The notes below the pieces were generated by a model, which was not told where the DNA came from, did not search any database, and saw only the letters and a program-made list of their open reading frames with translations. This document shows positions 9,073 through 28,577 of a DNA stretch of 41,126 nt, in pieces. The stretch spans positions 1 to 41,126 of the forward strand of contig JAQTOZ010000005.1 in assembly GCA_028713205.1 (NCBI GenBank), written 5' to 3'. Each line of letters starts with the position of its first letter. Positions within the stretch are counted from its first letter, which is position 1. This DNA is from Candidatus Omnitrophota bacterium. GTDB taxonomy: Bacteria > Omnitrophota > Omnitrophia > Omnitrophales > Aquincolibacteriaceae. Position numbers and translations under genes: made by a program.

Positions 9073-11322
9073 CTAGCAGTGGCGGAAGATGCAGGCGGAC
9101 AGGGGCGGCAGGTGGAGATTCAGTGAAAACGGCCGTCCCTGCCAGGCAACGGAATCGGAGTGAAGGCCGCCGCAATTGCCCAAACCGCAGCCGCCGTATT
9201 CCCGTCCCTGGCTATTGAAAATTTCCTGGTAATAGCCGTACCGCGGAACGCCGACACGGTAATTTTCACGAATAACGGGCGTCATATTAAAGACGAATAC
9301 GAGTAACTGGTTGTAATGCCGCGACCAACGCAGGAAGCTGATCACGGAAGAGTCGACATCCGAAAAATCGATCCACTCGAAACACTCGCTACGGAAGTCC
9401 CCTTCATAGAGGGCAGGGTTTTCGCGGTAAATCCGGTGAAGGTCGCGCAAGAGAAGATTGATCCGCGTGTGCGGCGCGTACTGCAGAAAATGCCAATCCA
9501 GGGATTGTTGCACATTCCACTCGCTACGCTGGGCAAATTCACTGCCCATAAAAAGAAGCTTCTTACCGGGATGCGCGAACAGATACGCCAGAAAGACCCG
9601 CAGGTTTGAAAATTTCTGCCAGTCATCGCCGGGCATCTTTTCCAGCAAGGCCCTCTTGCCATGCACCACTTCGTCGTGCGAAATCGGCAGAATGAAATTT
9701 TCCGAGTACGCGTACCACATCGAAAAAGTCAGCATCCCCTGATGGTATTTGCGGTAAACCGGATCTTTGGAAAAATATTCCAGGACATCGTGCATCCAGC
9801 CCATGTTCCATTTCATGCTGAAACCCAGCCCTCCCGTATACGTGGGCCGCGAGACACCGCCCCAGGCCGTGGACTCTTCGGCGATCGTCAGCACGCCCGG
9901 GAAACGCGCGTGCACTACCTCGTTGAATTTTTTCAGGAATGCGACCGCCTCCAGGTTCTCGTGCCCGCCGTACACATTGGGTTCCCATTCGCCGGGCTTG
10001 CGCGCGTAATCCAGATACAGCATGCTGGCCACGGCATCCACCCGCAGTCCGTCGACATGATATTGGTCCAGCCAAAACAAGGCATTGGAAATCAGAAAGT
10101 TGCTGACCTCGCGTTTGCCGAAATCAAAAACCAGCGTACCCCACTCGCGGTGCTCGCCCTTCCGCCAGCTTTCATAGGCGTAAATTTGCCGCCCGTCAAA
10201 GTCCACCAGCCCATGCCCGTCCCTGGGAAAATGCGAAGGCACCCAATCGAGGATCACCCCGATACCGTTTTGATGACAATAGTCAATAAAATACATAAAC
10301 TCGGCCGGCGTCCCGAACCGGCTGGTCGGCGCGTAGTAATTGATGACCTGATAGCCCCATGATTCGTCCAAGGGATGTTCCATCACCGGCATCAACTCGA
10401 TGTGCGTATATCCCATGAATTTTACGTACTCCACGAGTTCATACGCTAAATCCCGGTAGTTTAAAAAGCCCCAGTTCTTTTGCCCGTCCCGTTTCCAGGA
10501 CCCGAGATGGACTTCGTAAATCGAAACGGGAGATTCGAAAAGGTCTTTTTGCATCCGCGATTCCATCCACATCTGGTCTTGCCACGCGTATGCATCGAGC
10601 CGGGCCACGACGGAGGCACTGTTTGGCCTCAACTCCGCCGAAAACGCGTAGGGGTCGGTTTTCAAACGAATTTGCCCGTCCACTTCCGATTTGATCGCGT
10701 ACTTGTAGACTTCGCCTTCTGTCAATCCGGGGATGAAAAGCCCCCAAACGCCCGAGTAACGGATCTTCGCCATCGGATGCGTGCCGGTCATCCAATGATT
10801 AAAATTACCGACCACGCTGACACTTTTCGCGTTGGGAGACCACACGACAAAATAAACGCCGGAAACTCCTTTTAGAAGCATCGGACGGGCGCCTAATTTT
10901 TCGTAGCTGTGGTAATGAGTGCCCTCCCCGATCAGGTAAAGGTCGAAATCGCTCACCTCGGGGGGAAAAGCATAGGGATCTTCCGATTCCTGCTCAAATC
11001 CTGTTTCATCGAAAAACCCTATTTTGTAGGGATTTATTTTCGAGGTCCGTTCACAAACGGCCTGAAACAGACCGTTGGGATGGATTTTTCGCATCGGTGT
11101 CCGGACGCTTTTCTTCTTCGACAGCCGGATCCACGCTTGCGTCGCACGCGGAAGGAAAGCCCGGACCACGACACAACGTTCCTCTTTGAACACATGCGGC
11201 CCAAGAATTTTGAACGGATCGTTCTCATCAAAACAAACCACCCGTTCCATATCGGATGGCAGCGGAAGCCCTTTGTCTTTTCCGGACCGGCTCGTCTTTT
11301 TCCGTTTAGGCCGTGAAAGCAT
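9073..11322 (-). CDS. glgB: 1,4-alpha-glucan branching enzyme
   Basis: 749 residues. It moves alpha-1,4 chains to alpha-1,6 positions in glycogen. An N-terminal Arg/Lys-rich stretch leads into an N1 region and a CBM48-like sandwich (about 145-250). The GH13 barrel carries Asp-Gly-Leu-Arg-Val-Asp-Ala (nucleophile Asp429), Ala-Glu-Glu-Ser-Thr-Ala-Trp-Gly-Gly (acid/base Glu near 482), and Ile-Ser-His-Asp-Glu-Val-Val-His-Gly-Lys (Asp550). Length is ordinary for GlgB. No other glycogen gene is in the window, so it is isolated. AAAAGGGA precedes the ATG; a promoter-like motif lies 57 bp upstream. Confidence 0.95.
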   Translation of the reverse strand: MLSRPKRKKTSRSGKDKGLPLPSDMERVVCFDENDPFKILGPHVFKEERCVVVRAFLPRATQAWIRLSKKKSVRTPMRKIHPNGLFQAVCERTSKINPYKIGFFDETGFEQESEDPYAFPPEVSDFDLYLIGEGTHYHSYEKLGARPMLLKGVSGVYFVVWSPNAKSVSVVGNFNHWMTGTHPMAKIRYSGVWGLFIPGLTEGEVYKYAIKSEVDGQIRLKTDPYAFSAELRPNSASVVARLDAYAWQDQMWMESRMQKDLFESPVSIYEVHLGSWKRDGQKNWGFLNYRDLAYELVEYVKFMGYTHIELMPVMEHPLDESWGYQVINYYAPTSRFGTPAEFMYFIDYCHQNGIGVILDWVPSHFPRDGHGLVDFDGRQIYAYESWRKGEHREWGTLVFDFGKREVSNFLISNALFWLDQYHVDGLRVDAVASMLYLDYARKPGEWEPNVYGGHENLEAVAFLKKFNEVVHARFPGVLTIAEESTAWGGVSRPTYTGGLGFSMKWNMGWMHDVLEYFSKDPVYRKYHQGMLTFSMWYAYSENFILPISHDEVVHGKRALLEKMPGDDWQKFSNLRVFLAYLFAHPGKKLLFMGSEFAQRSEWNVQQSLDWHFLQYAPHTRINLLLRDLHRIYRENPALYEGDFRSECFEWIDFSDVDSSVISFLRWSRHYNQLLVFVFNMTPVIRENYRVGVPRYGYYQEIFNSQGREYGGCGLGNCGGLHSDSVAWQGRPFSLNLHLPPLSACIFRHC

Positions 11323-11375
11323 TCGTGTCCCTTTTTGTAATCGGCTTGCGCCCGTAGAGGGCTTTCATCAAACAC

Positions 11376-11413
11376 GGAATTTTACAACCGAATCGCAAAA
11401 TTTAGGAATAAAA
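11376..11413 (-). promoter_or_regulatory. Promoter-like motif, copy C
   Basis: Minus-strand TTTATTCCTAAATTTTGCG, then ATTCGGTTGTAAAATTCC (TAAAAT at 11379-11384), 57 bp upstream of glgB. Nearly identical to copy A over GGTTGTAAAAT. Confidence 0.4.
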
Positions 11414-11431
11414 AAACGATTACGCAATAGG

Positions 11432-11794
11432 AATTGTGTTCTTTTCTGCTGAAACTAAGAGGCGTTTCGCTCAAATGCTCCGGCTTCTGGAAAACTAAGC
11501 CCGGCTCGGGTGAGGAGGCCTCCGTCATTCCGCAATGAGACGGGTGGATTGCCGAATTGGATTCGCAGCACTACCATTCTAAGCAGATGGCGGATGGGAA
11601 ACCGCGGCCCCATAGGGGAACGCGGAGGGACCCATACGACAGATGCCGTAGAATGGTTGCAAGGAATCCACTGAGGCAAGAGGCCGGCTCATTGCGGCTG
11701 CCGGTTTCCTTCACCCGATCCGGGCAAGTTTTCAAACGAACCCTCCGCAATTCGCTCACCGCCTCTTAGCTCTGCCGAACGAAAGAACACAATT
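11432..11794 (+). ncRNA. Candidate structured ncRNA element, copy 1 (core 11546-11684)
   Basis: Fills most of the 590-bp gap between glgB and the PP2C gene. The ends are perfect 13-bp inverted repeats (AATTGTGTTCTTT at 11432-11444 and its complement at 11782-11794), continuing into long complementary arms (CTAAGAGGCG 11455-11464 with CGCCTCTTAG 11760-11769; CCGCAATGAG 11530-11539 with CTCATTGCGG 11688-11697). Inside are nested helices: GGATTC/GAATCC (11559/11664), ACCATTCT/AGAATGGT (11573/11650), ATGGG/CCCAT (11594/11631), CCGCG/CGCGG (11602/11621) and CCCC-ATA-GGGG (11608-11618). Purine-rich unpaired segments are on the plus strand, which suggests plus is the RNA strand. It matches no RNA family I can name. 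Confidence 0.6.
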
Positions 11795-11913
11795 TTGGTT
11801 GCATAGTCAAAAAAACGGTTTCCCTTTTTCAGCACTTACGGGAATCGGTTAAAAGGTGTAAAATGATTATCGAGTCATTGTGAAAATCATCCCGGGAAAG
11901 GAAGCATCCAATC

Positions 11914-12666
11914 ATGACCAAAATAAAAACTGAGATCCAATACGCCGCCGTCACGGACATCGGACGGGCCCGGCCAAACAATGAGGATTTCTGGCGGGCG
12001 GTCCCCGAAATGGGCCTTTACATGGTTTCCGACGGCATGGGAGGCCGCGCCTCCGGCGAAGTTGCGGCGGAGATGGTCATCGAACTCTTACCCATACTTT
12101 TCAAACACAAATTGCCCGCCGATCTGCCGCTGAACACGCCCCGCATGCGTGCGATCGTCAACGACACCCTGCTGCATGCAAGCCTGCGGATCTTCGAGGC
12201 CGGCGAAAAGAACCCGTCGCACCGGGGTATGGGCGCGACCGTCGTCTTTTGCCTGTTCCGTGGCCGGGAAGTTCTCACGGCACATGTCGGCGACAGCCGT
12301 GCCTACCTGTTTCGCGCACACCGGCTCACGCGGCTCACCAAAGATCACTCCGTTTTTCAGCTACTCGTCGATCAGGGAGAGGCGGTGGAAGAGGAAGCCT
12401 CCGGACATCCGGCGCGTTTTCAATTAACGCAATGCATGGGACACGGCATGCTGATCGAACCGGGGCTTTCCGTCATGGAATGGATACCGCAAGACCGTAT
12501 CCTTCTGGCCAGCGACGGACTCTTTGATATGATCGACGACGGCACCATCGAAAAGACCCTTCAAAAATACTCGGAGCCTTCCGAGGCCTGCAAGGAACTT
12601 GTCGCGGCCGCCAACAACGCGGGCGGAAAAGACAACATCACCGCCCTCGTGATCGACTTTCCCTAA
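11914..12666 (+). CDS. PP2C-family serine/threonine protein phosphatase
   Basis: 250 residues, cytoplasmic, Stp1/PrpC-like in size. The metal-site motifs are in order: Arg-Pro-Asn-Asn-Glu-Asp (Asp25), Ser-Asp-Gly-Met-Gly-Gly (Asp40-Gly41), Arg-Gly-Met-Gly-Ala-Thr, Val-Gly-Asp-Ser-Arg-Ala-Tyr, Thr-Lys-Asp-His-Ser, Leu-Ala-Ser-Asp-Gly-Leu-Phe-Asp and Gly-Gly-Lys-Asp-Asn-Ile-Thr. It removes phosphate from Ser/Thr proteins with Mn/Mg. No Hanks-type kinase partner is in the window. AAAGGAAG precedes the ATG; a TGTAAAAT about 50 nt upstream may be the -10. It is the only long plus-strand gene in the first 39 kb and converges on the rhomboid-like gene. Confidence 0.9.
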   Translation: MTKIKTEIQYAAVTDIGRARPNNEDFWRAVPEMGLYMVSDGMGGRASGEVAAEMVIELLPILFKHKLPADLPLNTPRMRAIVNDTLLHASLRIFEAGEKNPSHRGMGATVVFCLFRGREVLTAHVGDSRAYLFRAHRLTRLTKDHSVFQLLVDQGEAVEEEASGHPARFQLTQCMGHGMLIEPGLSVMEWIPQDRILLASDGLFDMIDDGTIEKTLQKYSEPSEACKELVAAANNAGGKDNITALVIDFP

Positions 12667-12698
12667 AACGGCACGGGCATCCGGTCCAACACGATTTT

Positions 12699-12716
12699 GT
12701 CCGCATTCATGCGGAC
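12699..12716. terminator. Hairpin at convergent gene ends
   Basis: GTCCGCAT-TC-ATGCGGAC, a perfect 8-bp inverted repeat, lies in the 40-bp gap between the PP2C stop (12666) and the rhomboid-like stop (12707), overlapping the latter. It lacks a T-run on either side, so a terminator role is only suggested by position. Confidence 0.35.
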
Positions 12717-13363
12717 GCCTCGGAATGCCAGCGGCGCACCAGCGGCAGCGATAGCCATCCCAAAAAAAAGGCGACGACATGCGACAGGCCGGCGATGAGA
12801 AGAATACTTTGGTCATTTTGGAACAGGATCGTCCGGGAAGAAACGGCGAGCAGGCCGGACCCGATGGAAACGGTCAGAATCAATTTTGCGATCTTCGAAA
12901 TTTTGCTCCACTGCCAAATCGCAAGTCCGAGGCATCCGAAATAACCCGCCGAAGGTCCCACATCACGGGCAACGATGAGGACCGTACCGGTTGAAAAACC
13001 GAAGAGATGCAAAGGCAACGCAACCATCAGAGAAACAAACAACAAGGTCAATAAATGAAACCCCCAAAACATAAACGCCGTCAACCGGGCGCCGATCGCA
13101 TATTCGAGAGTGCCCACGGCCAAAACGATCATGAGAAACGCCTGCCAAAACGCGCGCGCGCTTTCGGTCACCAACGCCGAGGTCAACAAACGTTCCCAGT
13201 GGCCGCGCCATAAGTCCTGGGGCGCAAACCCCAAATGCTCCAGCCAGCCGGCCGACAACCTCCCGATATGTGTTTCGGTAAGAAAAGCAATCACCGTCAG
13301 CGCAAAAAGGAGCACGACGGTAAACGGGAAAAACCTTCGTCGCGAACTTTTCGATTCCTCCAT
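12707..13363 (-). CDS. Rhomboid-like intramembrane serine protease
   Basis: 218 residues with about six membrane helices. Trp-Arg-Gly-His-Trp-Glu-Arg-Leu-Leu-Thr-Ser follows the first helix, as in rhomboids; the putative nucleophile is in Gly-Pro-Ser-Ala-Gly-Tyr-Phe-Gly and the histidine in Gly-Leu-Ser-His-Val-Val-Ala-Phe-Phe-Leu-Gly. Rhomboids cut transmembrane substrates inside the bilayer. The Gly-x-Ser-x-Gly and the last-helix His-x5-Gly support activity, but overall similarity looks weak, so a rhombosortase-like or inactive relative is possible. The ATG at 13363 has AAAGGAT upstream. It could be one of the proteases acting on exported precursors here, but that is speculation. Confidence 0.65.
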   Translation of the reverse strand: MEESKSSRRRFFPFTVVLLFALTVIAFLTETHIGRLSAGWLEHLGFAPQDLWRGHWERLLTSALVTESARAFWQAFLMIVLAVGTLEYAIGARLTAFMFWGFHLLTLLFVSLMVALPLHLFGFSTGTVLIVARDVGPSAGYFGCLGLAIWQWSKISKIAKLILTVSIGSGLLAVSSRTILFQNDQSILLIAGLSHVVAFFLGWLSLPLVRRWHSEASA

Positions 13364-13480
13364 GGGACATCCTTTCTCATCCGAAGAGCTTGAATTTTCC
13401 TTTGTTCTCCGCCGCTTAAACACCCGGCAGCCTAAGTCTGTGCATCCATCCCTCGTATCGTCACGGCTGAACGTTTGCGA

Positions 13481-15031
13481 TCAGGCGCCTGCGGGCCCGA
13501 TATCGGTCTGACAGTTTTGTTTTCTGATTTGATCCAAAATATTTTTCGCGGCCGCATATTTGGGATTGATGTCTAAAAGAGCTTTATAACAGGCCATCGC
13601 TCCGCACGCGTTTCCCTGCTGCGCATATTCATCCCCCCGGGCTTTGTACCAATCCAGCATTTCGCCGTGATGCGGGGAAACCTTCATGGCCTGCACATAT
13701 TCGCCGTATGCCTCCTGGTACCGGCCGGTCATCACCCAATAGGTCGCCAGCGTGTAATGCATTCTCGTATTATCTTCCGTCACTTGAATCGCATGCCGGA
13801 ATAAGGTCTCGCTGTTTTCCCAATATCCCGCCTGCCGCCTGGCCATTCCCGTCAAAAGCAACAAAGCGGCCACCCCCGCCACGGCAAAAATTCGGCGCGA
13901 AACAACGGATCGTGCCGCGAGGTCCGCCCCGCCCCAAACAACCATGATAAAAATACCGGTAAGCGGGACATAGGTATAGCGGTCGGCCATCGCATGAGCG
14001 CCGATTTGCAAGATGCCGATCATCGGCGCCAATATCCCCAGATACCAAAACCAGCCGGTGAACAAGTAGGGCCTCCGTTTAAAAAAAATCAAAACGAGTG
14101 CGGTGACCGCAACCAGAAACAGAGCGGCCACGGCCCATTGCCCGAACACAATCCTCCCATAGGGATAAAACACGGCGAGGTCAAAAGGCCATATGGTTTT
14201 TACGAGATATTCATAATAGGAAAAAACCGCATTTTTTAATCGGATGGACATGGGCAAAACTTGCGGCGAAGTCACAGCCTTGCTTTGCAGTTGCGCGAGT
14301 ATGCCCACCCCCACAGCCAGCGCGGAGAGCAAAAAGAAAGGGACTTTTTCCCGCAGCATGCGGCACCATCCGCAAAAATCTTTCCACGGAGTCCCGACAC
14401 GGCCCAGCGGCCAAAAATCCAAGAGCAACAACACACAAGGGAAAACCACAAACAACTGTTTCGTCATCAGCCCCAGCACAAAAAGAATATAGACGGGTAC
14501 GATTCTCGCAGGACGGTCATTCTGCTTTACCGCACGGGCATAAGCGCCCATGGCCATGATCCAAAACATTGTCCCGAGCAGGTTGTACCGTTGCGATATC
14601 CAGGCGACCGCTTCCACATGAATCGGATGCAAGCCAAAGAGCGCCGCGACGAAAAAGCTGCGCCAATATTTCCCCGTCATGCGATACAGCACGAGGAGCA
14701 ATAGGAAAGTGTTAGCAATGTGCAGGAGGATGTTGGTCGCGTGAAAACCGGGCGCATTAAACCCGTAGACTTTGACGTCGGCCATCATCGAAATCCAAGT
14801 CAGTGGCTGCCAATGGCCGCATTTAAAAGCCCCCAAAGACCAAAGGACGCCTTCCGGGCACAGACCTTTTTGGACATGCTCGTTGTATAACGCATAGCAG
14901 GTATCGTCGAAGAGAATAAAATCGGCATGCAACAGGCCGGCGAAGGCATACAGGAGTCCGCCCAGCAATCCGACAAGCGCCAGCCATGGCAGGATTTTTC
15001 GTGTCAGGAAACTGCGGCTATCATGCGGCAT
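13481..15031 (-). CDS. TMTC-like membrane glycosyltransferase with TPR domain
   Basis: 516 residues. An N-terminal helix precedes Phe-Asp-Asp-Thr (the acidic loop typical of GT-C enzymes), His-Trp-Gln-Pro-Leu-Thr-Trp, His-Ala-Thr-Asn-Ile-Leu-Leu-His, Leu-His-Pro-Ile-His-Val-Glu-Ala-Val-Ala-Trp and Ser-Gln-Arg-Tyr-Asn-Leu-Leu; about ten membrane helices follow, then TPRs from about residue 420. This matches TMTC/DUF1736-type proteins, which transfer sugars (mannose in eukaryotes) to proteins at the membrane; the usual Arg-Lys-Asp is here Arg-Tyr-Asn. AAGGAG is about 12 nt from the ATG, slightly long. A TATAAT lies about 57 bp upstream (15085-15090). Confidence 0.75.
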   Translation of the reverse strand: MPHDSRSFLTRKILPWLALVGLLGGLLYAFAGLLHADFILFDDTCYALYNEHVQKGLCPEGVLWSLGAFKCGHWQPLTWISMMADVKVYGFNAPGFHATNILLHIANTFLLLLVLYRMTGKYWRSFFVAALFGLHPIHVEAVAWISQRYNLLGTMFWIMAMGAYARAVKQNDRPARIVPVYILFVLGLMTKQLFVVFPCVLLLLDFWPLGRVGTPWKDFCGWCRMLREKVPFFLLSALAVGVGILAQLQSKAVTSPQVLPMSIRLKNAVFSYYEYLVKTIWPFDLAVFYPYGRIVFGQWAVAALFLVAVTALVLIFFKRRPYLFTGWFWYLGILAPMIGILQIGAHAMADRYTYVPLTGIFIMVVWGGADLAARSVVSRRIFAVAGVAALLLLTGMARRQAGYWENSETLFRHAIQVTEDNTRMHYTLATYWVMTGRYQEAYGEYVQAMKVSPHHGEMLDWYKARGDEYAQQGNACGAMACYKALLDINPKYAAAKNILDQIRKQNCQTDIGPAGA

Positions 15032-15084
15032 ACGACGTCTGAACTCCTTCCGGTGTCATCCCTCATGTCTCTCCGATTTTTCGG

Positions 15085-15113
15085 ATTATACTCCCGGTCC
15101 GTTTTCCGCACTA
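15085..15113 (-). promoter_or_regulatory. Candidate promoter for the TMTC-like gene
   Basis: TATAAT at 15085-15090 on the minus strand, 54 nt before the start, with only a weak TAGTGC 17 nt further up as -35. A CCGA-TTTT-TCGG hairpin lies just downstream. Confidence 0.3.
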
Positions 15114-15198
15114 GGCAGTTTTCGCCGCATCGCGAAAATGTTTTTGCGTCTAAGCCTTGCGCGGCTTTGCCATGAATTTTAGCCTTTGATCGCAACAT

Positions 15199-15378
15199 CG
15201 ACAACATCCTGGCGAATTGCTCGCTCAAAGCCTCCGGTTTCGGAAAGGACTACAGGCAATTTGTCGGGGGCCCCTCGCTGTCGGTAAAACACACCGCATC
15301 GTTTCCCCTCGACAACATTGCCTAAGTCTTTCAGCGAAACCTGCGGCATTTGCTCGCAAATTCGCCAGGATGTTGACA
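15199..15378. repeat. Long imperfect inverted repeat (about 180 bp)
   Basis: Arms of about 70 bp pair almost throughout: CAACATCCTGGCGAATT near 15201 with AATTCGCCAGGATGTTG near 15360-15375, GGTTTCGG/CCGAAACC-type pairing in the middle, and AGGCAATTTGTCGGGGG with CCCCTCGACAACATTGCCT. The tip is a short CGCTGTCGGTAAAACACACCGCATCG segment. I see no coding potential. It could be a MITE-like element, a bidirectional terminator or a double-stranded RNA source. Confidence 0.6.
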
Positions 15379-15624
15379 TAACTCGAAAGGGGTGAGTTAT
15401 TCGCTATCGGCCGCCATGAATCCCGGCCGGATTGCCGAATCGGATTCGCAACGCTACCATTCTTGTCATATGGCGGATGGGAAACCGCGGCCCCCTAGGG
15501 GAACGCGGAGGGACCCATACGACAGATGACGTAGAATGGTTTCAAGGAATCCGCTGAGGCAAGAGGCAGGAGCTCATGGCGGCCCACATTCGCTGACCGT
15601 CTCTTAGATAAAAGCAGGCTTTAT
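15378..15624 (+). ncRNA. Candidate structured ncRNA element, copy 2 (core 15429-15567)
   Basis: About 92% identical to copy 1 across a 139-nt core (11 differences by eye), but the outer arms have no sequence similarity and still pair: GGCCGCCATGA at 15409-15419 with TCATGGCGGCC at 15574-15584, and ATAACTC/GAGTTAT at 15378/15394. An A-T pair in the outer helix of copy 1 is a C-G pair here, a compensatory change. It is downstream of the giant gene's stop and next to the long inverted repeat. Confidence 0.6.
15608..15624 (-). terminator. Possible terminator of the giant gene
   Basis: Minus-strand ATAAAGC-CT-GCTTTTAT hairpin starting 26 nt after the stop codon, with T-rich 3' arm. The stem is short and imperfect. 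Confidence 0.35.
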
Positions 15625-15649: not shown

Positions 15650-16699
15650 TTATGCCGACCACTGAATGACGTAGCTGTTTTTGATTTGCGCCCAAACGGC
15701 CTCACAAAACTCCGCCGCAATTTGCAGACGCCCGTTTTGTCCCACGCGGGCAAACGTGGCATGGATCTGCTTCAGCAAGGCCGCGGCCGTAAAAGATTCG
15801 ATCAAATTCAAAGCGACCTGTAGGGCCCCGGGCCGGTTGTAATCCAGCGGAATAATATTTTCCCGGATCCCGTATTTTTCTTTCAAGCCATTGAGGAGTT
15901 TCACCGTATCCTGGGGCGAACCTAATCCCTCAAATAAAGATGCCTGGATAAAAATACGCTTCGGCGTCAAATTCCCCCATTCCAATTCGGTGAAATGAAC
16001 GCGTTTGCGATATTCGGTCAACAGCTTCTGAAGCTTGGGGACCCGGACATTTGCCAAGGAATAACGGTCCGCGCCTTCTATATATATATCAAAGGCCGGG
16101 TGCCGGTCCAAGAAAGCCAGGAGTTCGTCCAAACGTTCATCCGTCTTTCCCGGCTGAAGCATGGCAAGTTCCTGCGCGCGGATGAAAACGGCGGCCGGTG
16201 CCGTCATTTCATGAATCGGTTTCATGCGTGTCTCGGAACGGGAAAGCCCTCTGGACTCCGTCGCAAGAGCAGCTTTGAGTTCCTTCCAGGATGAAAAACC
16301 TAAAACACGGGCGGCTTTGGCTTTGTGCCGATTTGAAACTTTCTGGCCCGGCGCCCGCTGTTCCATCATACGGACAACGACCCGCTTCGATTCGGGCGTC
16401 AAATAGGAAAACGGTGTGGGTTGGTCCGAGGTCAGGGCAAACCAACGTTCGGGATCGGGACTAAATGTCAGGCCGTCTCTTTCCATGGCTTTTCTGTCAA
16501 ACGCAAGCCGCACCTTCGGCTCGCTGGGCGAATAACCTTCCCCGCCCGCCACGGCAATCGCATAATCTTCATGCTGGGCAAAATAAGTCCCGGCACGAAG
16601 CGTACCCGCCTTGACCATCATTCCCGGAATCGCTTTTTCTAAAGTTTCGTGATGCAAAATTTTTCCGAGGTCCTTACGTCGTGCCTGCCCGTCCGGCAG
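15650..16699 (-). other. Modules 11-12: C-terminal unknown domains
   Basis: Two small domains divided by RSETR (4092). The first has Trp-Phe-Ala-Leu-Thr-Ser-Asp-Gln-Pro; the second begins after Met-Lys-Pro-Ile and has Phe-Ile-Gln-Ala-Ser-Leu-Phe-Glu-Gly-Leu-Gly. I recognise neither family. Confidence 0.4.
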
Positions 16700-19600
16700 G
16701 CGGGTTTCGGACCGAGTATCTGTACCACTACGCCTCAGGTTGAAAACGATATCTGTTTGTTTGATCTCCTCGATTGAAAGCGGTTCGTGGTACTTCGGAC
16801 CGGGGCGACTGAGGCGAATGTTGTCCCAAGCACTATCTTCATTCCAATGGCGATGGAAGATCAAATGAGGCGGATGCGAAGAAAAATAGAGCCAGATTAT
16901 CAACTCCCCTGCACAATAGCAATTTCGGTCAACCCTTTCTGCCTCCTCAATTCCGATCCCCGTCACTGAATACCGAAGTTCTTCCGGAAGATCAGCTAAT
17001 TGTTCAAGTTGCTCCGGACTAAAAATATATTCAGCAGGGATAACAACGGTATTGGGGGCATCCCAATCAAGATCATCCCGCTGCCGGCTGCTGGCAAGAA
17101 GCCGAACCGGGATTTGAGCACGCTCTTTGGCATCCGCCATAGAATACGTTTTGGCTTTGATCCGGGATTGTCCGGTCTCCATCCACCTCATCAAATTCAT
17201 GACTATTTTTTCCATGGGCGCGTCCTGGGTCGTATGTGCCGCCGCTGCAGCTTTGAGTTCGGATATCGTAACTTTCACAACCGGCAGTTGATAGAGATGC
17301 GCCGCTAATTCTTCGGACCAGTCTTTGGTTTCGCTAAAACCACCCGGCCAAGTCGATTTCCCCAAAACAGAAGAATCATCAAACGACGAAGCATGATCCG
17401 TAAGCCAAATAATACCGTCCAGCCGGACAAAACCTTGTTTTTCCTCAAAACCTTCAACGCGATAATATCCCCGGTAGGGTTCTTCGGGAGGCTCATACGG
17501 AAGATTTTCTTTGACCGGATGTGAAGTCCTCATGCTCGTGGGTCGAACCATGAAAGGCAGACCCGCGATAAGGGATCTTTCACCTGCTGCATCTTGGGCC
17601 GGGCTGAAATAAGCCGCGACGGTATCATCGGACAAAAATTCGATCTTGCCGCCGGACACGGCGGTTAAATAATAGGTCAGCATTGACTTGCCTGACCCCA
17701 CATCTCCGATAATTAAAAACCCCCTCGCTGGCTGATCCGGAGATGCTCGATAAGCAACAAGATTTCCCCTCAACCAATGAGATTCGCTTTCTTTCAACGA
17801 CAGCAGCACGGGATCCTCTTTGCCGACAGCCTCCCAAAAAATATCAGCCACAGCCAAATCCTTCTCGCCTCTTTCCCGGCGCTCGATCAAGGAACGATAT
17901 AAATCGCCAAAGGAGTAAAGCTGGTTTGCCAAATCGATAAAAGCAGACAAATCACGGATTTCGGAACGCGTTAGGTCTTGGGGCTTGCGTCTTGGGTCTT
18001 GAGTCAGACTTTCCGTTGCGTCACGCCGCATCTCCGAGCGGGCTTCGGGTTCGGTCCGGTCCAGTTCCTGTTTCCGGGCATCGGCAACAATGCTTTCTAA
18101 AACGATCGAAATTCCATTCGCGGTACGTAAGAAAGCTTTCCTGTGCTCCGGCCATAACGTTGTTTTGAATGCTTCAAGCTGGACGATGGAATCCATGTTC
18201 TGCCGGATTAAAACACGTAAGTTGTCGGGGATATAACAAAAATTAGCGGCGAGTCGTTGTTCGAGATCTCCAATCTCGGCCGCATCTGCTTGTTCAGGAT
18301 GCAGGAGTAAAGCGCGAAGTCTTAAATACGCCAGTGCATAGCTCAAATCCGCATTCGCGCCGTTAATTTGATAATAAGCCCGCTGCCTCGTCCCGTCGAA
18401 ACGCTGGAATGGCGACGGGAGTGGCCAAAGCCGGCGCAAGCCCCGCGCTACCGATTTCGCATAACCCGTCTGGATTTGATCTGCGAAAAGTTCAAAATCA
18501 AGCAAGGCCTTCACGATCGTAGTCAATTTACCGAGCGTCATGGACTCTCCGGAAATGGCGGCATCCGCCACGTATGCGTCGACAACGCGTTGCCGGTTTT
18601 CGGCCAGCAGTTTAAGGCGGCCGGTTTCCTGAAAGAGTGTTTCGCGTAATCTCTCTCTGTCGAATGCTTTTTGACTACCGAATTCTTTTTGGCCCAGACG
18701 GATTCCGAATTTTTCCGTGTTATCGGTGACACCCCCCCACTGGAACATTGAAATCTCGAGGTGTTTGGTTTCTCCGAGGGCAAGACTTAACTGTGCGCTG
18801 ATTTCAACATCCCCGGCAATTAAATTTTCAATCTCTTGTTGCAACCACGCAGGCACACCGTCATCACCGGGCCGCACACTGGGAACGAAATTAATTTTAT
18901 TCATCAACACCGGATCGCGGACTTCGGACCGGGCAGATTGAGTGTCTAGCGAATAGCGCCCGCCTGTGGCGAGCGCGGCAGGGTTCGCGGTTAGTTTTTC
19001 GGTTTTTCCTAAACGTTCGCCGCTATCCGCTATCCGCTGTTTGGTACGCGTCTCCGAGCGTGCCGAAACAGCCTGACCGATGAACATTTCGAGTGAAAGC
19101 AGGGAATGCGGTGAACCGCCGATTTGAGCGACTTGGCGCGCGCCGATATGGACACGAAAGCCGGCGACCTCCATGGCCTCTTCGATTTCAGCGCGGGAAT
19201 AGCGGATGTAAAGCGTGCGTTCGTATTCTGCCTGGGTCAACGGTAAATTGGTCAAAGGCGATGTGGCCAAAATCCATCCGCCGTCGTTGAGTTGACGCCT
19301 CGCACTTCTAAAAAACCTGAAGCGGTCCGTCTGGCCGGCGACGTCAATCGCGATCACGAGATCATATTTTTCCTGCGGCTCCGCCAGTTCCTGAGCATCG
19401 GCGACAACGGTTTCAACTCCGATGGCCCGGGCAAATTCCGCATTGCGCTCGCTGATGTCCACCCCCTTCACGTGATGTCCGTCTTGAATCAACGCGGCCT
19501 CCAACTGCCCGCGTCCCGAACCGAGAGATAGAATTTTTAGTTTTCTGCCCAAAACCTGGCTTAACATATTAATTTTGGCGCGATACCAATTCAGAATTTG

Positions 19601-22600
19601 CGGATTCAGCTGCACCATACCGACCGGCGCTCCGAGTCCGTCCGGATACTTGCGAAATCCCTGATCATCAAAATGCCGGTAGAATTCTTTGACCTGCTCG
19701 GGCGTCGGAACTGGAAATTCGGGTTCGGAAGATGAGTTTGACTCACCCGGCCGCACGATACGAATCTCGGAGCGCACTTCAGGAGATATATCGCGAGCCG
19801 AATCCGCAGACAACGTATTGATCCGGTAAATGATAGCGGGCCGATCTGCATAACCGAATTTGACGCGTGCGGCTTCCTCCGGTGTCATGTCCAAATTTAC
19901 ATTCTCGGGCGAACTGAGGATTGTCACTTGATATTTCGAATCCGATTTGAGATAGCCCCCGAGCGATTCCAACACGAGAATTCCGCCGGTGACCAAATCG
20001 TCTTCGATATCCAAATTTTGCAAGCGGAACATTTCTCCGTCCCAAGCAACGTCATTGGAATAAGCCTTGTCCGGCGCTTTAAACAGTCCCCAATGCGCTT
20101 TGCCTCCGGTCCCGAACTTTTCGAGGTACTGTCGATAGAGAAGTTTGCCTTGGAGATCTTGCGTTTTCGATGAGACGCCGGAGACATAAATAATTTCGCG
20201 CGTTTTACCTTGATAATCAAATTGAATCAAATAAACATTGTCTTCTCCGGGCATAAGTTCCGGCCCCCTGATATTCCCCACGCCGATGGCCTGCAAGAGC
20301 TCCAGCTCCTTGATCAAAAATGGGCGAATGCCGTTCTGCTGTAAGATAGTCGTCCCGGCGAGTCCCCGCGTCATGGATTTCTTTGCAAGATATTCTGCGA
20401 CTTTGTCTGCGCCGGCATCTCCTTTGTCAAACTGCGCCTCGTCGACAAAAATAAACCGGTCGGTGTGCGGAAAGAGCCTTAAGGCGTTGGCAATATCGGC
20501 ACCGCCTGCAATGTAAAGTCCGGTAATCTTCCCATTGACCGCAGGCCGTGGACTATTTCGTTGAATCAACAGCGCAGCTTTTTGCAGATAGACGTCATTG
20601 TCCTCATCCCCGACCAGACCGATCCATTTGTCATGACGCATCTCTGAACGGACTTTACCTTTGATTTGAATTTTTTCCGGATCGCGGCCGAAATGTCGCA
20701 AGGCCGCGGGCCAGCTGCCGTATACCGCCGTGGCCCGGTTGAGCACCCCCCCCAGTTTGCGGCGCTGCATGGCAGCGGTACTGAGTTCTTCATCGCTCGA
20801 TCCGTCAATCACCGCCCGCATCGCAGCTTCGGTCCATTTTGTCTCCTTATGAGTTTTCCGGCGACTCATATCTTTGCGCCGTATGGACAAAACATCCGCC
20901 GCGGCCCAACCGCGCTTGACGGCATGACGCCTCATTTTCTGCAAGGCACCCCGTTTAACGTCCCGAATGCGCTGAGTTTTCGCGATACCTGTTTGGGCTG
21001 CGATTTCTTCATTGGTGTCCAAACGTAGCGTATCGATACCATAATCCAATCGAATCACTTTTCGTTGCTCATCGTCTAAAGTCTTTAGCAGTGCATTGAG
21101 ATGCCGAAGAGCAATTCCGGAATCCTCGCTCAGGCGGGCTCGCCCGGTAATCCCGCGGCGGAACGCATCAAAAGCAAAACGACGGAAACGCATCAAAGAG
21201 GCATTCCCCGGTTTACTCTTGGCTTTCCAAACACTACGGTCCCGGGCAATGCGTCTCCGGATCTGATTCAAAGACCGTGCCGGACGTTCACCCAACCCGA
21301 AATGAACGCTCAAATATTTTCTTTCCAAAGGACGGAGGCCAAACCAGATTTCACGCAAAAGCCGCATGCGGGCATTCGCCGGTTTCCGTTTTTCGCGGAT
21401 CTCCGCAACCATTTGCCTGAGCTCCGCTATGGTCACGCCGACATTTTCCGGAATCTCCGACATGACTTTCGGACGATAAGGCGAACGGCCGAAGCCTTGT
21501 TCGGCCAATTCCCTGCCTTCGATCAGATTTTTCAAATTCTCGCGTGCGCGAAGCAATAATTGTCCGAGGCGGCCGCGGCTGTACGGTCTCCCCCGGTAGG
21601 CAACTCCCAGCTCGAAAAGCATTTGCGCAAATCCTTTCCTTTTCCGCGCGCGATGACGGTTGACACCGAAACGCAATTCCAGCATCAATCGCTGATTCAC
21701 GGGCAATCGTTCCCATAGCTCCGGGGTAATCGCATCTACCGGAACTCCGATTTTTTCGGCGATGAGCTCAAGCCCGGGCCGGGCAGCTTTCAAACGTTGA
21801 ATCGCGTGATAAGTCAAACCGATAAGCCGTCTTTCACTTTGCATAACAACGCCGGCGACACTTAGCTGCTGCAATCTTTCTTTGATGCTGGAACGTTCCG
21901 GAGTATCCGGCGGGAAAGCGCAAACGATGATTTTCCAATCTTTCTCCGACAAGGCATGACGCAGCGCCGGATCTTTAAGCCGTTCGACCGCAATACCGGT
22001 ATCCTGATGCAAGGTGTCCCAATTGACAATTTCTTCATCGCCCGTCACTGTGGATGCCGCTACCGTGACCGTCGCAATCCCATCAGGTCGCCCGGATGAT
22101 AGTTCAGCAAGACCCGCCGCAACCGCAAGCGACAGAGCAATTTCAGTTGCATCTTCCGCAGGAACAACCGGCGCTGGTTTTTCGGTAAGCATTGTTGCCG
22201 GTGCCGGGCGTTTTTGAGAAATGATCGTCAGCCGCGTCCCTTTAATTTCATCGGGCGTAATATTCCATAGATAAGGCGGGATACCCGCCGTGCGCAGGCG
22301 CGTGCGGGCCTGGTCCAACAAATCCAGCAAACGCCCGCTGTGGGAAGCCACGTGCAAAATGAGCGTACTTCCGTTTGCGTCGACGAGATAAATCTCGGAC
22401 ATGGCGTTGGCATCATCATAAATAAATTTGCGCAAATACTGCATGACCGCCGGTGTATCAGCAAATTGCCCTTCCTCTAAAATTTTCCTCGGTGTTTTCG
22501 CTACCGCCTTTCGCTCTTGCCATGGATGCGGGCTCAAAACTCTTTCATCCGGAACCACATCGTCATCAGGTTCTTCCTCCTGTCCTACCTCGTCCCTCCG

Positions 22601-25600
22601 AACCGATTCGACATCTCCGTCTTGCGACGGCCATTTCCGGTTTTTCTTTTTTGATTTTCCTTCCGGTTTATCACGGCGGACTTCGGACCGGGCGAATTGA
22701 GTGTCTAGCGAATAGCGTTTAGCGGTTAGTTTTTCGGTTTTTCCTAAACGCTTCACGCTATCCGCTATCCGCTGCTTTGTTCGTGTCTCCGATCTCGTTT
22801 CGAGTATCGGCTTAAAAACAATGGTTGTGCGTTTGATATCCTCAACCTTAAGTGGCACGCGAAATTCCGGAGCAAGCGTCGGAGACCAATAAGTATCCTC
22901 ATCCCAGTCGCGGGAATAAATACCAACCGGCGTATGCGAAGCAAAATAAAGCCGGATGGTTAAATCTCCTTTTCGATCACCCCACTTGTCGACAATGACG
23001 TCGTCCTCGATTTCGATTCCCGTCACGGAATCCCGCAATTCCGCCGGTAATGCGGTAAGTTGTTCGAGTTGCGCCGGATTAAAAATCGCATCAGCCCGAG
23101 TCATGTCGAAACGCGGCTTGGCCCATACGAAATCCTCGCGCTGCCGGCGGCTGGTAACGATGCATACCGGAATTTCGGCGCGCTCTAACGGATTCGCCAA
23201 AGAATATTGCCGCACCGGCGTTCGCATCGCGTCGTTTTCCATCCATCCAAACAAGTCCCGTGTCATTTGTTCCATGGGTGCGCGTTGATTTGAACGTGCC
23301 GCCGCCGCGGCCGCCTCAAGTTCGGGAATCGCAACTTTCAAAACCGGAAGACCTTCCAGGCGGGTTGTAAGATCATCAGACCAATGGTCGGTCTCGGAAT
23401 CACCGGCCGGCCAGGTCGATTTTTTCAGGGACAAGAAATTTTCAAACCGTCCGGCGTTATTCGTAAGCCAGATGATGCCGTCCAGCCGTACAAATCCACG
23501 TGTTTCCCTAAAATCTTCGACACGGTAATAGCCGCGGTAATTTTCTTCGGGTTCTTCATACGGGAGACCTTCCCGAACCGGATATGATGTCAACATCGCG
23601 AAAGGCTCGATCATAAACGGAAGGCCGGCAATCAGAAACTTGTCTTCTGCCACATTTTGAGACGGCCCAAAATAAGTCGCCACGGTGTCCTCCACCATAA
23701 ATTCCACTTTGCCTCCCGATTCAGCAGCTAAATAATAGGCCAACATGGTTTTTCCGGAACCGACATCACCGACGATCAAATAACCGTGGGCTGGTTGATC
23801 CGGTGATGCACGGTAGGTAACCAGATTCCCCGTCAGCCAATGGGGTTCGCTGTCTTTCAAAACCGATAACTCGGCATCCTTTCCGAGAGCGGTTTCCCAA
23901 AACACATCATTCACCGCCAAACCGCTTTCACCGTGTTCTCGGCGGTCGATCAATGTTCGCCATGTTTCTCCGAACGGGTAGAGCCGGTCAGCCAGCGCGA
24001 TATACGACGCGAGTGTGCGGGTTTCGGCCCGCCCGAAAGAAAAAACGGGCACCGGAGCACCGGGCACACGTGCACCTGTCCCTGGTGTTCTGGCGTTCTG
24101 GTGCTCTGGTGTTCGTCGCGTCTCGGACCGGGAAAAGTTAGCGGTTAGCGCAGAGCGGGTAGTGTCTAATTTTTCGGTCTGTTCCAAACGCTCGCCGCTC
24201 ACCGCTATCCGCTGTTTGACTTGTACCTCCGACCTTGTCCATTTGAGAATTTGCTCTTTCTTGGCCAAAAGAACTTCACGTATTTTTTTCATTTCCGGCC
24301 TCATCAGCACCAGAACTTCGCGCGGAATCTCCCGCCGCTCTTCGATCGTTTCACCGTAGTACGCCTCGGCGGGAAGTTTTCTCGTTTCCTGCGTCCTGGC
24401 TTCTATGATTCCGTGAGGAACGGCGACATCGCGGCGCAAACGTTCCGAAAGCATATAGGGCAGAAAATCATCGCTTTGCGCGGGAAAGTCATACGGGATA
24501 ATTTTAGACCGTGCCTCGGGCAAAAGCACAGGCTCCATCGCTTGAAACTGGCCGCGGTCCATGATAATCGATTGAATGTCCCGCAGTTCCACCGTCATGC
24601 CGGACGCCAGCGAAAAATACCGTTCATGATAGTCACCGCTGAGACTGATCGAGGCATGGCCGTACCGGGCAAGCTTGTTGAAATAATCCACCGAAAAAAC
24701 AAGAATCAAGGGGCGATGCCCTTCCCGCAGATTCGCATACCATAATCCGCTCACATCGCTGAGCTCATTGCCCATCCCGGAATGAGAATGGGTATCTGTT
24801 CCCGCATACCGGTACCGTCCCCACGTCGAAAGTGCCCGGGCTTCTTCATCGGTGGCGGTGACACGGAACACCTGCCCCTGGGATAGATAAAAAAAAGACA
24901 AAAATTGCGATTCCGCCAAGACACGGAAACGCACGGACTCCTCGACGCCGGCCCATTCGCGAATGGCCGCGGTCAACGCTTGCCGATTGTTCCCGAAGCC
25001 GGCAAAAAAATCGATCGTCTCGTTCAGTGCCGCCTCGGCGAAAGCACCGATCCCTTGCGACCAAAAGACATAGTCCCTCATATCGGGCGTCTCCGCACTC
25101 TTCGGACCGGTATCAAGCCGCATCTCGGACCTGGCAACTTGTTGATCTTCGCTGTTCCGCTCCAAGCGAAAGCCGTTTTCGGTCTGCGAAGAAAGGACCG
25201 GCACCAAATCCAGACCGGCATACATCGCAAAACGGAACAAAGGCGAATATTTCCAAACTTCACGCTCTTCGTTTTTTTCAAAAATAAAGTTGTTCAGGGC
25301 ATGAAACCCGATCGAAGCCATAAGCGATTGCGCGGTAAGCCGGCCGTAAGAAACGGCCTTTTGGTATGGAATATCATAATTCACCTGCGACTCCGTATAG
25401 ACCCAATGGCACAGGGCAAACAAATCATGAGAGATCCGCAACGCCGTGTGAAAAGGCTCCCCCCATTTGAGTTTGACGAACATCGGCAGATAATACCTGA
25501 ATAAAACCTCTTCCAGGAGGGGTGCTGCGAGAATGTCACGAATCGCGATCCTCTCGGCTACACCCGCGATCAAGCTTTCGCGTTCCAGTTGCAAATTCAA

Positions 25601-28513: not shown

Positions 28514-28548
28514 AACCCCATATTTACCAATGAGATAAAAAGTATTAA

Positions 28549-28577
28549 AGTGTGCCCGCTGACGCATTCTTTGTCAA
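28549..28577 (-). promoter_or_regulatory. Sigma70-like promoter of the giant gene
   Basis: TTGACA (28572-28577), 17-nt spacer, CACACT (28549-28554) on the minus strand. It overlaps an upstream in-frame ATG at 28565-28567, so the ATG at 28513 is the probable start, with a leader of roughly 30 nt. Confidence 0.6.

Follow-up and report, generated by a model that had tools for sequence, protein, structure and literature searches.

A nested-hairpin repeat of Omnitrophota is probably a modular, non-autonomous mobile element with IS256-type ends

Introduction

Two intergenic segments of a single Omnitrophota contig (JAQTOZ010000005.1) carry almost the same long, nested hairpin. Is such a repeat a structured RNA, or is it mobile DNA whose folding is kept at the level of the DNA itself? 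The question was raised by an original prediction made on a window of 41,126 nucleotides, the whole stretch analysed here, which described two copies of a structured non-coding element and counted a MITE carrying an RNA among the alternatives.

Results

Two nested hairpins in the window

The near identity of the two copies was borne out: 11541-11687 and 15424-15570 share 90% identity across 147 nt, and the 139-bp core is 92% identical. The nested helices that had been named are present in both, with folding energies far below those of shuffled sequences. Copy 1 reaches a minimum free energy of −176.3 kcal/mol over 364 nt (z = −9.3), copy 2 of −96.7 kcal/mol over 186 nt (z = −7.8), and in neither case did any shuffle fold as well. 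The reported change of an A-T pair into C-G is genuine too, as GCAATGAG/CTCATTGC in copy 1 corresponds to GCCATGA/TCATGGC in copy 2 and in the copies of contigs C126 and C59. Copy 1 folds equally well when its reverse strand is used, so that the fold by itself does not indicate an RNA.

Copy 1 extends further than had been described. Its inverted repeat spans 11418-11808 and forms a 391-bp nested quasi-palindrome. Copy 2 is a shorter derivative, in which the core hairpin D sits in shorter arms and adjoins a second, related hairpin (15202-15375); this second palindrome was absent from the original prediction and has 4 further copies in the assembly. The features are as follows.

11410..11417, no strand: left 8-bp target-site duplication AAAAAAAC, read directly from the flanks
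11418..11808, no strand: element copy 1, complete 391-bp nested quasi-palindrome (fold and inverted-repeat search; full-length 68% homologue in another family)
11418..11444, plus strand: left terminal inverted repeat, IS256-type (GATTACGCAATAGGAATTGTGTTCTTT); its 27 bp align in register with an end of the IS256-family element in G016, at 85% identity
11455..11501, plus strand: outer arm module A, left, including CTCCGGCTTCTGGAAAACTAAGCC (sequence comparison)
11546..11684, plus strand: core hairpin module D, copy 1 (covariance-model match 11550-11678)
11723..11769, plus strand: outer arm module A, right (sequence comparison)
11782..11808, minus strand: right terminal inverted repeat, IS256-type (GACTATGCAACCAAAATTGTGTTCTTT on the minus strand; inverted-repeat and end comparison)
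11809..11816, no strand: right 8-bp target-site duplication AAAAAAAC, read directly
15202..15375, minus strand: second hairpin, core E between arms of module A', a relative of D in the opposite orientation (palindrome search)
15409..15584, plus strand: element copy 2, core D in shorter arms GGCCGCCATGA/TCATGGCGGCC (covariance-model match 15433-15561)

For the second hairpin (core E), the covariance-model match falls on the minus strand of loci L091 and L094.

Copy 1 has a divergent gene on either side, one glgB-like (9073-11322, minus strand) and one for a PP2C phosphatase (11914-12666, plus strand). It contains no large ORF, and a scan around it found no sigma-70-like promoter or terminator. 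Copy 2 lies between the gene for a TPR protein and a gene for 4305 aa (15650-28567, minus strand), whose only recognised parts are a methyltransferase domain and an Rce1-like stretch. The Rfam 15 covariance models gave no match at gathering threshold over the window and none up to E = 10 in 11300-11900, in agreement with the original statement that the element could not be matched to a known family.

Copies in the assembly are dispersed, decayed and nested

The repeat is not confined to the pair first described. The assembly, an Omnitrophota MAG of 3.1 Mb in 295 contigs, matches its 139-bp core at 11 places, in both orientations, several of which are cut by contig ends (C239, C130, C233) or by other insertions. 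All copies inspected sit between larger ORFs and carry no transposase. The order seen at copy 2, second palindrome then core hairpin, recurs in C169 and C149. An internally deleted derivative was found in C199, with the arms kept, the interior gone and a join at CCGGCTC; since this motif is present in both arms of copy 1, the join fits a deletion between short repeats.

A further palindrome of about 75 bp (CTCGCCACAAAGC...AAAAAGCTTTGTGG...CTTTTTGGCGG) was found beside AATG within the arms of three elements (C24:2160-2606, C126:5507-5990 and C149; loci L002, L007 and L008), so that palindromes are nested in palindromes. In C149 and C190 the core itself is broken up by other hairpins. Short perfect hairpins (CCCCGGGC...GCCCGGGG, CACAGTTCTCATTTCGAAATGAGAACTGTG, CCGTTATGATCATCGATTG...) cluster near two contig starts (L008, 100-175; L011, 18-260); these, including the two that interrupt the core, could be either real insertions or assembly effects.

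The ends resemble those of IS256-family elements

The terminal inverted repeats of copy 1 (11418-11444 and 11782-11808) are 78% complementary without gaps. The element starts GATTACGCAATAGGAATTGTGTTC after the left AAAAAAAC and reads GACTATGCAACCAAAATTGTGTTC at its other end before the right AAAAAAAC, and is therefore bounded on either side by an 8-bp direct repeat, itself a low-complexity sequence. Similar ends are found on the copies of C24, C239, C130, C233 and C97, the C130 end being GATCATGCCAATAAAATTGTGTCCTTT. The C24 copy has a decayed direct-repeat pair, CCCGCAAG/CACGCAGG. No target-site duplication was found for C126, C59 or C169, and most other copies are without a clean one.

The ends of IS256-family elements contain AATTGTG, which prompted us to compare them with those of the repeat. 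Genes of this family (PF00872) are present in 11 of 58 relatives. An IS256-family element of genome G016, from the same family as the host (locus L052), encodes a Transposase_mut protein (E 2e-62), ends in GATCATGCAATAAGAATTGTGTCCTTT and TAAGCTGTATATGGAATTGTGTCCTTT, and has an 8-bp sequence, CTCTGAAC, duplicated outside. Both ends of copy 1 and that of C130 match its end GATCATGCAATAAGAATTGTGTCCTTT. Copy 1 aligns with this IS from base 1 of both, over 27 bp at 85% identity. The E value, from a small search, is 0.018, but the alignment keeps register at either boundary; no similarity was found beyond the ends, and none inside the IS. The outer ends of the C126 copy resemble a second IS256-family end, AAATCGTATCCTT, from G008. 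The original prediction had itself named a match to a transposon end as a refuting result, and the terminal repeats provide such a match.

Copy 1 has the characters of a MITE: terminal inverted repeats, a target-site duplication, 391 bp without a transposase gene, 11 dispersed core matches in its genome, and ends matching an autonomous element, here that of G016, of the same family and another genome. An IS256 derivative should also have its partner transposase in the same genome. No match to PF00872 was found in the host assembly (G000), an absence that is not final because the assembly is 93% complete, and the partner is for this reason deduced from the related genome. No enzyme that would mobilise the element was found in the MAG.

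Relatives in one order share the interior and differ in their ends

A search with the full element gave a full-length homologue at 68% identity in another family of the same order, which a search with the arm pattern places in Omnitrophota NC_groundwater_286 (JACPCP010000025.1); the arm pattern also gave a shorter relative in Omnitrophica CG11_45_26 (PCVY01000076.1). More relatives came from a second search round (G028, G034, G002, G008), and G014 and G041 were added by searching with a covariance model built on the core. The homologues listed overall are those of G028, G034, G002, G014, G041 and G031, and all matches fall in one order. Searches of viral contigs, phages and plasmids gave no relatives, and the exact core pattern had no match in genome-contig and viral-contig collections. 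Arm-pattern matches in Bdellovibrionales and Myxococcales (two) were set aside as chance, no related hairpin being present there, and BLAST matches at L072-L077 and L081, outside any related hairpin, also looked like chance.

Two architectures were found, a single rod with modules A-B-C-D, or two hairpins, A-E then C-D. G028 has both, the rod in its contig C25 and the two-hairpin form in C4. A direct repeat of 14 bp borders the rod of G028, next to a tRNA gene, and one of 9 bp the G002 element; in both, the outer ends differ from those of copy 1. Relatives with other ends and direct repeats of 9-14 bp imply that one transposase does not explain the family. Core D is enclosed by unrelated outer palindromes in G014 and G041, and by different arms in G028 and G034. 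Taken with the differing ends, this indicates that the interior outlives its ends.

The relatives of G028 and G034 (L099, 1280-1420; L101, 1300-1440) have 434 bp in common at 73% identity, upstream of different genes. This stretch includes a possible short reading frame (LPxxIDNGLSRP) and is perhaps part of a larger composite element. A second end motif, GGCAGAATCTCCCGCCTC...GTCGGACACTCGGCC, and the self-palindromic GGAGAAATTCTCC recur at the ends of relatives in these two genomes (L069, L101, L078).

Pairs covary strongly and are poor in G-U

If the structure is kept as an RNA, one strand should be able to carry G-U pairs; no such tolerance is expected of palindromes that template switching corrects in the DNA, or of elements read as DNA hairpins. 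Covariation statistics, proposed with the original prediction, gave a very strong signal. In a table that includes six antisense rows and a model-fitted alignment, 34 of the 38 core pairs were changed on both sides and 95.9% of cells were paired, compared to 71% in shuffles, none of which came close, and 33-49% when the alignment was slid. A recount over the 23 sense-strand cores, antisense rows removed, gave 778 Watson-Crick, 14 G-T, 12 A-C and 25 other pairs (829 in total). G-U thus accounts for 1.7% of core pairs and is no commoner than A-C, so that the G-U tolerance on one strand that generally goes with covariation in a structured RNA was not found. With a symmetric alignment, which ignores RNA energies, G-T and A-C numbered 36 and 40 in own-genome copies, 9 and 19 in cores, and 8 and 11 in full relatives. 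These counts are descriptive, because sequence pairs with common ancestry are not independent. For comparison, 27 tRNAs had 44 G-T in 567 pairs (7.8%), the G-T fraction being the only one fair to compare because ARAGORN brackets may hide A-C. Single changes among young copies, a small sample, lean slightly to G-T (15 G-T, 8 A-C, 14 other), next to 18 double Watson-Crick changes.

Double Watson-Crick changes make up most of the changes, which is what template-switch repair of a DNA palindrome should produce, and template switching can create stems (PMC8794818). The internal loops are conserved in position and purine character and are strand-specific (GAAT/CTGA; GGGAAA opposite CGGAGGG; single purine-purine mismatches), which goes beyond what template switching alone predicts. 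They may serve protein recognition, or be interruptions that keep a long palindrome tolerable. Their persistence, and that of the hairpin modules, across several families under different outer arms suggests a protein-recognised DNA hairpin or a limit to palindrome perfection; we have modest confidence that the interior of the element has a function.

Discussion

The element is real and most likely mobile, a nested-hairpin MITE of an unusual modular kind, and a functional RNA is disfavoured. We consider it probable that these repeats are non-autonomous, MITE-like mobile DNA of Omnitrophota, built of long nested hairpins whose arms are kept at the DNA level. In this genome, complete copies carry IS256-type terminal inverted repeats at both ends, and the ends and duplication observed at copy 1 make it most likely that an IS256-family transposase supplied in trans inserted them, with 8-bp target duplications. 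Their interior consists of modules, arms A-C and cores D and E, each a hairpin part that recurs in three or more families of the order. As pairs change on both sides together, with hardly any G-T and no excess of G-T over A-C, we infer that the arms most likely stay complementary through processes acting on the DNA: template-switch repair inside the quasi-palindrome, selection on a DNA hairpin that is extruded, or both. Of the MITE carrying an RNA that had been envisaged, the MITE is supported, by its 8-bp direct repeats and IS256-like ends, and the RNA, given stems so poor in G-U, is not.

Known mobile elements offer partial parallels. QMITE1 and QMITE2 of Coxiella burnetii are gene-less MITEs of 150-400 bp, each over its whole length one stable hairpin (mfold −193 kcal/mol for QMITE1), with terminal inverted repeats and direct repeats, and QMITE2 receives further insertions (PMC5896051). 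They are like the Omnitrophota element, as far as their description goes, in all these general traits: no gene, a whole-length hairpin, terminal inverted repeats and direct repeats. They differ in belonging to one species plus alphaproteobacterial matches, and neither cross-genus covariation nor modular nesting figures in the part of that description available to us (PMC5896051). With the IS256-family IS of G016 the element shares the terminal 27 bp and the 8-bp target duplication; it differs in being a palindrome without transposase, with similarity limited to the ends. REP/REPIN elements, which go with RAYT transposases, are, like it, intergenic imperfect palindromes with conserved mismatches, but REPs measure 20-40 bp (PMC3733652), whereas the Omnitrophota elements are 120-390 bp long and in few copies, and the lone RAYT is not linked to them.

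A functional RNA of about 130-390 nt, carried by or spread with the MITE and having core D/E in the originally predicted orientation as its working part, is unlikely in our view. Such an RNA would account for the very strong covariation, for loop letters conserved across genera (the GAAT/CTGA loop, GGGAAA opposite CGGAGGG, and TTAGA) and for the slight lean of young copies to G-T, and in size and complexity of the predicted fold the element is comparable to OLE, ROOL, GOLLD, raiA and HEARO. It differs from these in its lack of an Rfam match, its scarcity of G-U and its mobile DNA ends; moreover both strands of copy 1 fold equally well, and neither promoter nor terminator was seen near it. In C59 and C169, GGGA-GA-CCGCG / CGCGG-AGG-GA-TCCC fits a kink-turn layout. 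By eye this layout is not kept in the other homologues, and we rejected it as a family-wide feature. It is extremely improbable that the repeats are assembly artefacts or chance palindromes, as the truncations at contig ends and the perfect hairpins near the starts of C149 and C190 might suggest: both window copies lie well away from the ends of their 41-kb contig, and homologues at 68% with the same architecture occur in independent assemblies of other origin. The artefact reading is already refuted for the family, and individual truncated copies are doubtful.

More room, although still limited, should be left for a hairpin module that a recombinase recognises as single-stranded or cruciform DNA and that itself moves or is excised, having been captured inside different transposon ends, by analogy with the REP elements of Y1/RAYT transposases or with attC sites. 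The occurrence of core D within unrelated palindromes or different arms would fit, as would the position-conserved purine-purine mismatches, the asymmetric loops on one strand, the insertion of other hairpins within palindromes, and pairing restricted to Watson-Crick, which suits a DNA hairpin. Yet the single PF01797 gene (Y1, REP-type transposase) of the assembly (G000:C85:4406-4735) has no related hairpin in its flanks, on which ground a REP/RAYT system was rejected; neither REP elements nor usual attC sites come near the elements in length, no attC boxes (GTTRRRY / RYYYAAC) were seen by eye in the element, and no excised or circular form was seen. A more specific proposal, which we regard as doubtful, is that the core, a DNA hairpin module conserved in fold, poor in G-T and common to Omnitrophota families, has a recognition system of its own; the module would pass between transposons whose ends are unrelated, and a putative protein would bind its folded strand. 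If true, the core hairpin would be a class of mobile DNA with a secondary structure conserved as that of an RNA would be.

Returning to the modular MITE that we favour, no paper was found that connects Omnitrophota with MITEs or with this particular repeat, and as far as the literature searched shows this is an undescribed mobile element of Omnitrophota. Strong covariation is commonly taken as proof of a functional RNA. The nested-hairpin family is a sharp warning case for covariation-based RNA discovery, because 34 of 38 pairs covary and yet transposon ends are present and the G-U signature is absent. It also offers a natural case for testing whether compensatory changes arise from DNA template switching.
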